A stretch of 64,000 nt of DNA, taken from assembly GCF_002305895.1 (NCBI RefSeq), contig NZ_CP022203.1, positions 1,776,501 through 1,840,500 on the forward strand, read 5' to 3'. The position numbers and the translations under genes are program-made. Each line of letters starts with the position of its first letter. Positions within the stretch are counted from its first letter, which is position 1. Below the pieces are notes generated by a model. That model made no database searches, was not told where the DNA came from, and saw only the letters and a program-made list of their open reading frames with translations. This stretch comes from Corallococcus macrosporus DSM 14697. Its GTDB lineage: Bacteria; Myxococcota; Myxococcia; Myxococcales; Myxococcaceae. This document shows, piece by piece, positions 60,701-64,000 of this stretch.

Positions 60701-61641
<941 letters not shown>

Positions 61642-61687: not shown

Positions 61688-62377
61688 TCATCCGACGTCG
61701 TGGAAGGAGAGGGCCTTGTCGACGCTCTCCCGGTTGAGGGGCTTGTTGAGGTCGAGGGGCCAACCGACGTCCTCTACGGTGGGCTTGGGCGGACGCTCCG
61801 CGGGGGCGCTGCTGTTGGGCAGGCCGAACTGCTTCTCCACTCGGCCCAGGCGCTGGTGCTGCTCCTTCACACTGCCCTCCAGCGCGCGGACGGCGTCGGT
61901 GAGCTTCGTCAGTCCTTCCATGACGCCGGAGGAGTCGGGGCTCGGTGCGGGCGGAGCCGGCTGAGGAGCCGGCGCGGCGTTGGCGGCCTTGGCGCGCGCC
62001 TCGACGTCCTCCTCGTCCTCGGAGTCGTCTTCGTCCTCTTCCAGTGCGTCGGCGAGCGCGCGCAGGTGCTGGGCCACCTCCACCACGCGCACGCCGTCGA
62101 TGCCGTCCGTGGACGTCAGCGCTTCGACGAGGGCCGTCACTGCCTCAAGGGCCTGCTGGGCGGAGGCGAGGACGGTGTCCTCGGCCTTGGAGGTGTCCGA
62201 GGTGGTGGGGCTGGCGCCCTCGGCCGGCGTGGAGTCCTGGGGAGCGTCGTGCATGTCGTCTCTCTTCACGAGGAGGAAGCGGTGCTTGTTGGCGGCCCTG
62301 TCCACGAGGGACACCTCCTCCACCACCATGTCGACGAGGCGGTGGACGGGCGCGGAGCCTTGGGTGGTGCTCGTCAT
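61688..62377 (-). CDS. Scaffold-like phage protein
   Basis: 229 residues. N-terminal [20 protein letters not shown] is the SLVDRAAN block seen after prohead protease genes. The middle is acidic ([20 protein letters not shown]), followed by a coiled coil ([19 protein letters not shown]). Acidic coiled-coil proteins in this position act as scaffolds for capsid assembly. Starts inside a 4-base overlap with the protease gene. Confidence 0.75.
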
Positions 62378-63726
62378 GCGGCCTCCGGCTGGGAGTCAGC
62401 GGCAGGTGTTTCGGAAGGGGGGGGCTCGGTAGGGGGCGATGCCTCGGGGAGGCGGCGCGCGGTGCCGCCAATGGAGAAGCCCGTCAGTTGCCCGTCCTTC
62501 ACCCGGCCCCAGAGCTCGTCGGAGAGGACGCGCACGGCGAGAAGCCAGGTGCCCTTGCGCACCGGCACTTCGCCCAGGTTGAAGTCGACGGGGGCCAGGT
62601 AGCTCTCCAGCACCTTCACGTGCCCGTTGACGCGCATCTGGTGCATGAGCCCCAGGCCGCCGAACTCCTCCATGAAGCGGTGTGCCGCCTGACGAATCTC
62701 CGCGGCGGAGTAGATGTCGCCCTGCGCGTCCACCGTCTCCGGCTCCAGGACGACGCCCAGGACGTACCGCTCGTCGTCGGGCTCGACGCCCTTGAGGAGC
62801 GGCTTCGTCGCGAGGAAGGAGGCGGTGTCGGGCGACTCCTCCGGCTGCCAGTCGTCCACCGTGAAGTCCGGGCCACCCTCCAGCGCCTTCGCGGCGGGCT
62901 GGTAGTTGGAGACGAGGAGCTGCGTCAGCACGGAGGAGCCGCCCACGCCGCGCATGGCGGCGATGGTGCGAGGCGTCCGGATGCGCTTCACCACGAAGCC
63001 GGAGCCCTTCAGCATCCCGGGCAGCTTGCCCCGGATGCCGTACGTCATGAGCCAGCGGCCCTTCAGCGACTTGAGGACGCCGTAGAAGCGCTCCTCGTCG
63101 AAGTCGCCCTCACCGACGTCGACGTTGTACCCAGGGTACGGAGGGTCGAGAAAGAGGACGGTGTCCTTCCCGTCGTACTTGCGGACCACCTTCTCGTAGT
63201 CGCCGCCGTACACCTTCACGCGCTTGAGGCGGGGGGCGTGCTGCTCGATGCGGGCGAGCGTCTTCGCCTCGACGCCCATGCCGTTGGGGCTGACGCTGCG
63301 ACCGCGCAGCTTCCCGTAGGAGAAGTGCGTCAGGTAGAGGAAGCGGTGCAGGCGCTCCACGTCCCCCTTCGGCTTGGAATCGAAGAGGCTCTTGAAGGTC
63401 TTCTCGTCGCCGACCCACGGCAGCTTCTTCAGCTTGGCGAGGCCCGCTGGCGTCAGCTTCTGGAGGAGCCGGTACGCGTCGGCGATTTCGGGGTCCGCGT
63501 CGTTGATGGCCTCGACGTCCGAGGGGGCCTTCTCGAAGAGGACGGCGGCGCTGCCGGCGAAGGGCTCCACGTACGTCTTGTGCGCGGGCAGCATTGCCAC
63601 CAGGCGCTTCGCCAGGCGCTTCTTGCCAGCAGGGCTGCCCCAGATGGTCTTCTCCACCGGCTCACCCTGGAGGGACTCCAGGACGTGCCGGGCCCGGGCG
63701 AGGGCTTTCGTGAGGGCGTCACCCAT
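62374..63726 (-). CDS. Fusion of Dam-type adenine methylase and XkdF-like prohead protease
   Basis: 450 residues. Residues 25-275 are a D12 class N6-adenine methyltransferase: [36 protein letters not shown] (motif I), [16 protein letters not shown] (motif IV DPPY). Residues 320-430 match XkdF-like putative proteases of PBSX-type phages: [68 protein letters not shown]. These functions are normally separate genes; no stop lies between them. The methylase could protect phage DNA while the protease matures the head. Confidence 0.85.
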
Positions 63727-63904
63727 CCTGGAGGCCCTCCGGGTCGAAGCCCCACGTCAGCTCTCCCGAGGTGGGGAGATTGAGGTCGCGAGGCCAGACG
63801 ATGGGCGTCGCCTCGGCCTTGGCCGTGGAGGTCGACTCCTGCGTCGTCGTGCTGCCCTCCGGCGTCGGAGGTGAGGTGGTGGAAGGTGTCGAGGGTGCCT
63901 GCAT
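63719..63904 (-). CDS. Small hypothetical phage protein
   Basis: 61 residues, MQAPSTPSTTSPPTPEGSTT ... [13 protein letters not shown]. Thr/Pro-rich first half. Its stop overlaps the start of the fusion gene by 8 bases. A ribosome site (GGAGA) and the late promoter-like element lie directly upstream. No family. Confidence 0.6.
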   Translation of the reverse strand: MQAPSTPSTTSPPTPEGSTTTQESTSTAKAEATPIVWPRDLNLPTSGELTWGFDPEGLQDG

Positions 63905-63958: not shown

Positions 63959-64000
63959 CTAAGTGACGGCGAGTGTCGTGGTGCGGCAGAGGCCGTGGTA
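63959..64000 (-). CDS. 3' end of an upstream phage gene (cut by window edge)
   Basis: The last 13 codons read YHGLCRTTTLAVT and then TAG at about 63959-63961, just outside the late promoter-like element. Portal or terminase genes are expected at this position in similar phages, but the fragment is too short to identify. Confidence 0.45.
   Translation of the reverse strand, partial: YHGLCRTTTLAVT

Follow-up and report, generated by a model that had tools for sequence, protein, structure and literature searches.

A Dam-type methyltransferase joined to a head maturation protease in a Corallococcus macrosporus prophage, a candidate polyvalent head protein

One gene in the head operon of a Corallococcus macrosporus DSM 14697 prophage encoded a D12/Dam-type adenine-N6 methyltransferase and an XkdF-type head maturation protease in a single chain of 450 aa, and both domains were intact, conserved and selected as a unit. 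The gene lay on the minus strand at 62374..63726 (stop codon included) of the stretch of DNA that was analysed, a 64,000-nt window of NZ_CP022203.1 (positions 1,776,501-1,840,500), and was recovered from the ORF list, Pfam and PHROGs. We put at about one half the probability that its product is a "polyvalent" head protein from a contractile-tailed temperate phage, in which the protease would bring in and then free a DNA-acting cargo that leaves with the DNA. The 450-aa fusion belonged to a larger family, in which it was the simplest form and other members bore methyltransferase arrays and ligases.

The fusion ORF started with ATG preceded by a GGAGG-like, ribosome-binding-like site (GCATGACG), its stop overlapped the start of the following gene, and its GC1/2/3 values of 0.69/0.44/0.93 showed the codon composition of a real gene. 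The first-pass annotation had described one uninterrupted frame with D12 methylase motifs (EPFAGS, DPPYPGY) and an XkdF-like protease, and Pfam, PHROGs and the motif positions all agreed with it. The methyltransferase domain occupied residues ~25-277 (62896..63654, minus; Pfam and AlphaFold (AF2) model) and matched MethyltransfD12 (PF02086) over residues 34-199 (E 3.9e-16, 60 bits, cut-off 22). The AdoMet-binding motif I, EPFAGS, was found at residues 54-59 (63550..63567, minus) and the catalytic motif IV, DPPY, at residues 194-197 (63136..63147, minus), where it opens the longer DPPYPGY. The NCBIfam Dam subfamily profile TIGR00571 gave 65.3 bits, below its curated cut-off of 114.85, so the domain belongs to the D12 class and is not filed as a member of the Dam subfamily. 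The methyltransferase part of the AF2 model had a pLDDT of about 90, and residues 24-277 superposed on 7m6b (Z 23.4) and on E. coli Dam (4rtj_A; Z 21.7, rmsd 2.7, 233 aligned). T4 Dam, E. coli Dam and DpnM shared its predicted fold (Z 18-22) and motifs, but they are free-standing and only about 15-19% identical to it. Adenine methylation by this domain is predicted from its D12-class profile, its motifs and its modelled Dam-like fold.

The protease domain, whose identity was called from sequence profiles, covered residues 317-425 (62452..62778, minus); it matched Peptidase_S78_2/XkdF (PF14550) over exactly these residues (E 3e-30, 105 bits, cut-off 24) and phrog_3017 with E 3.4e-36, and it contained invariant columns in alignments A1 and A2. 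PHROGs divided the whole chain into a DNA methyltransferase over residues 34-279 and a head maturation protease over residues 301-426. His362 (LMHQ; 62641..62643, minus) and Ser418 (GFSIGG; 62473..62475, minus) were invariant in alignment A2 and are the candidate catalytic residues. The protease part of the AF2 model was middling (pLDDT ~50-76). A sequence search returned no solved relative of this domain and structure comparison listed none for it, the structural matches listed covering residues 24-292 only. Between the two enzymes lay a linker (residues 286-316; 62779..62871, minus), a probable release region judged by its dN/dS, its pLDDT and its variable length in relatives; pLDDT was below 50 across residues 297-318, and no cleavage site could be proposed from alignment A2.

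Among 19 Myxococcaceae copies the fusion frame was open and conserved, with purifying selection on both domains; dN/dS was 0.171 in the methyltransferase, 0.668 in the linker and 0.091 in the protease. A second copy, 93% identical, was present in the same genome. Matches were found in 37 of the 145 genomes of the order, more than 20 of them with the fusion at nearly full length. Sequencing error or a chance frame was ruled out by the selection, the 93% second copy and the conservation. A database search for the same architecture, proposed in the first-pass annotation, returned dozens of relatives with both domains in one ORF. The annotation had also taken the two functions to be normally separate; this did not hold in the phylum, where nearly every PF14550 match was a frame of the fused type and the XkdF domain was almost always in fused form. 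A stop between the two domains in homologues would have spoken for an error, and among the fetched loci no methyltransferase and protease were found as split neighbours.

The fusion gene sits, as judged from its neighbours, in the head operon of a contractile-tailed prophage, in the order portal, minor head (MuF-like), 61-aa ORF, fusion, scaffold-like, capsid, head-tail, and tail sheath/tape measure/baseplate genes. The earlier reading of the product as a head-assembly protein is supported by its domains, this position and its conservation. Only the 3' end of the 359-aa minor-head gene (63962..64000, minus) lay inside the window, beyond which the gene continued; it was identified by scanning the second copy and also a sister locus, and a portal gene lay upstream of it. 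The 61-aa ORF ahead of the fusion (63719..63904, minus) carried a WPRDLN...TWGFDPEG motif and resembled a 65-aa ORF in locus L191. On the other side, a scaffold-like gene of 229 aa (61688..62377, minus) overlapped the fusion's stop with its start, and the 19-aa motif (SLVDRAA) at the N-terminus of its product matched residues 4-32 of phrog_3017, at the N-terminal end of ordinary XkdF proteases. An ORF with such a motif lay downstream in 69 of 103 loci. The usual motif-protease-scaffold chain thus seems to be divided here into methyltransferase-protease and motif-scaffold. WPRDLN in the 61-aa ORF was also similar to WPLDLN in the C-terminus of the scaffold-like protein (61688-62377), perhaps as a common assembly signal.

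The coding sequence of the major capsid protein was spread over two frames that overlap and are linked by a conserved shift (60701..61641, minus; Pfam, PHROGs and comparison of copies). A fixed +2-base shift at ATGGGGTTCCTCTTACC was present in all examined close-clade Myxococcaceae copies (also in L067, L088 and L153-L165); in sister loci the capsid was one 313-aa ORF. The shift site lay within one of the least variable stretches of the gene, and dN/dS was 0.101 before the site and 0.108 past it in the shifted frame. The position at ATGGGGTTCCTCTTACC is a candidate programmed frameshift in the capsid gene.

Relatives were collected by scanning IMG/VR together with one genome for each species, giving 108 non-redundant complete ORFs with the same protease clade. 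The protease was C-terminal, with under 25 aa after it in 104 of the 108. At least one methyltransferase was present in 83 ORFs; 54 had one, 22 had two (including L022, a single methyltransferase broken by an internal deletion), seven had three and 25 had none. Three methyltransferase types followed a fixed order A-B-C, and the patterns were B in 98 cases, B-C in 29, A-B-C in 11, C in four and A-B in one, counts which take in near-identical loci fetched more than once. An EPFxG-type motif was found in 192 of 195 methyltransferase domains and DPPY in 191. Protease-only versions also occurred (L075/L205, L144 and L139), and the 186-aa protease of L075/L205 still bore a type C methyltransferase tail (AGQWQKRSRLFVASPGIRKAE), showing that loss from a fused ancestor occurs. 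In the protease tree, methyltransferase number varied from 0 to 3 among relatives; the tree was built on few columns and was used solely for this point. Two adjacent genes in L143:5143-6706 each had the same protease domain. A recurring stretch of ~80 aa between the enzymes and the protease (INDLPDxAFxYVEPGG...RHFPVxDxxGxLDxPHLRNAxARIPQS) was observed in L070, L093, L195, L150 and L135 and had no Pfam match.

The N-terminal position was not limited to methyltransferases. An ATP-dependent DNA ligase was N-terminal to the protease in L062/L107, L068/L206, L120, L126, L131 and L146, and a LigD-like 3'-phosphoesterase accompanied the ligase on these head-protease polyproteins (L107:3665-7363, L206:1277-7432, L120, L126, L131 and L146). 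In a model of the N-terminal 1100 residues of the L107 protein, residues 581-721 matched a LigD-type 3'-phosphoesterase (3p43; Z 16.2, rmsd 2.4, 120 aligned) and residues 747-1100 an ATP-dependent ligase (2cfm, Z 18.6; the M. tuberculosis LigD ligase, Z 14.8). Ahead of the phosphoesterase, residues ~100-200 (LYLVGGLANKGETKNDIDLL) held a nucleotidyltransferase-like motif in a part modelled with low confidence. The largest member, in L206 (the same gene as in L068), had 2052 aa and carried methyltransferases A and B, a stretch without assignment, methyltransferase C, phosphoesterase, ligase and protease. A 2H phosphoesterase was N-terminal in L140 and in gp18 of Arthrobacter phage Wheelbite. An inorganic pyrophosphatase (PF18823) stood before the protease in L204:2206-4290 and after it in L152:2909-5287. 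Nearly all of the exchangeable N-terminal enzymes act on nucleic acid; the pyrophosphatase of L204 and L152 is the exception, and since it does not act on DNA it counts against a DNA-directed cargo.

Phage proteins that combine several enzymes with a head-type protease at the C-terminus are a known class, described in 2017 (PMC5512222, Iyer et al. 2017). According to that paper, assemblin-like peptidases on polyvalent proteins are always C-terminal and probably process these proteins while the virion assembles. The fusion resembles the polyvalent proteins as presented there in having at least two disparate domains in one chain, a phage late-gene or virion context and a C-terminal protease of head-maturation type (here residues 317-425 of 450). 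Polyvalent proteins are predicted there to undergo processing as the virion assembles and to be injected along with the DNA, as may also hold for the fusion. Their methyltransferases, as that text describes them, are mostly DarB-type (EcoKI/TaqI-like, with LPD36 and SWI2/SNF2), whereas those found here are D12/Dam-type in one to three ordered copies; a DNA ligase with a LigD-type phosphoesterase on polyvalent proteins was not found in the main text. In a partial literature search, no description of a methyltransferase-head protease fusion was found beyond the polyvalent-protein paper, and none of ordered D12 methyltransferase arrays and phosphoesterase-ligase on the same protease.

In phage P1, the prohead protease cleaves DarA, and the Dar proteins lie inside the head and are co-ejected with the DNA against restriction (PMC12810830). 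The likeness, by analogy only, is that proteins inside the head, an adenine methyltransferase among them, are linked to a prohead protease and guard the incoming DNA; however, the Dar proteins and the protease Pro of P1 are separate and DarB is of another methyltransferase class, whereas here cargo and protease form one chain. The XkdF/Peptidase_S78_2 head proteases of PBSX, Lactococcus 28201, phiPsa374 and DLP3 belong to the same family and occupy the same head-operon position near the capsid gene. They stand alone or have a further C-terminal region, whereas here an enzyme is N-terminal and the SLVDRAA motif and scaffold-like region form a separate gene. PHROG 13242 was the 450-aa fusion itself, and PHROGs 1530 and 14859, labelled DNA methyltransferase and RNA ligase, ended in the same protease. 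Four records named "DNA methyltransferase" with an XkdF match, from phiPsa374 (151 aa), Y1-MI (156 aa), Lactococcus 28201 (349 aa) and RHph_Y1_11 (~213 aa), were considered as fusions and rejected, because they were protease-sized or protease plus downstream region and no methyltransferase domain was found in them by profile. The proteins of L079 and L084 (NC_023601.2, OR500437.1) were protease-only, about 150 aa, and labelled DNA methyltransferase, perhaps by label transfer from fused relatives. At the sensitivity of tblastn, no phage isolate record covered 80% of the fusion, which is therefore known only from prophages and metagenome contigs; no phage isolate had a near DNA match to window positions 40000-63900. 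A possible link to the prophage Mx alpha was considered; its particles have been described as tail-less (PMC6070905), whereas genes for a tail sheath, a tape measure protein and a baseplate were present in the prophage here.

With a constant C-terminal protease and exchangeable N-terminal enzymes, nearly all of them nucleic-acid-acting, a packaged cargo is the simplest reading. The protease domain would bring the methyltransferase into the prohead together with the scaffold, and the activated protease would cut the flexible linker and release it. The freed methyltransferase would remain within the shell while DNA fills it, pass together with that DNA into a new host and methylate the incoming genome ahead of host restriction, in the way that Dar proteins accompany the DNA of P1. 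Where a relative has two or three types of methyltransferase, more recognition sequences may be covered, and relatives with phosphoesterase and ligase may heal and seal the ends of the incoming genome. The first-pass annotation had proposed either DNA methylation where the head assembles or a methylase set free by cleavage; both are plausible, and the relaxed linker, modelled with low confidence, and the interchangeable N-terminal enzymes favour release of a cargo. More tentatively, the relatives may together form a class of head polyproteins in which the maturation protease both carries and releases a set of exchangeable DNA-care enzymes (ordered Dam-type methyltransferase arrays of different specificity, LigD-like phosphoesterase and ligase). 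These enzymes would be packaged along with the genome and reach the new host with it, where methylation would protect it from several restriction systems and its ends would be healed and sealed.

Equally, a methylase made late could modify the phage DNA while it is still unpackaged. It is possible, though we consider it rather unlikely, that the methyltransferase acts in the producing cell only, where it would mark replicating phage DNA before or during packaging so that progeny arrive methylated, the fusion tying its expression to the late head genes or holding the enzyme at the packaging site. The late position in the head operon and the stop-start overlap with the next gene are in line with this, as is the abundance of free-standing phage Dam-type proteins in a tblastn search of phage records; such proteins methylate DNA within the producing cell. 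However, this account leaves unexplained why the C-terminal partner should always be the protease and why phosphoesterase-ligase and 2H enzymes occur in the same slot. Dam controls the pac site of P1, and the methyltransferase might in a comparable way serve head assembly or packaging, by binding or marking packaging sites or as a DNA-binding internal scaffold, with catalysis on bulk DNA secondary. The tight conservation of the fusion and its place beside scaffold-like and capsid genes would fit, but this seems improbable, since protease-only versions (L075/L205, 186 aa; L144; L139), a methyltransferase number of 0-3 among relatives and a ligase able to fill the slot show that no single methyltransferase is needed for assembly.

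The frameshifted capsid gene downstream and the remnants of related genes (L022, L075) could suggest that the fusion is a recombination or assembly accident in a decayed prophage, without shared function. An accident would be expected to show in a dN/dS close to 1 or in a junction that is often broken. Neither was seen; instead, dozens of species and contigs shared the fusion with catalytic motifs kept and dN/dS of 0.09-0.17, and the capsid gene past the frameshift was strongly selected in the shifted frame (0.108). This explanation was already disfavoured and is very improbable.

If the reading as a packaged cargo is true, these phages carry ready protection and repair enzymes in one chain with a protease able to free them, and they would adapt by gain and loss of modules ahead of that constant protease. 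The fusion would then make it possible to test directly by what route packaged anti-restriction enzymes enter the head and are freed, and would serve as a natural system for loading capsids with an enzyme via protease fusion. It would also give a testable function to proteins that are now labelled unknown or mislabelled.
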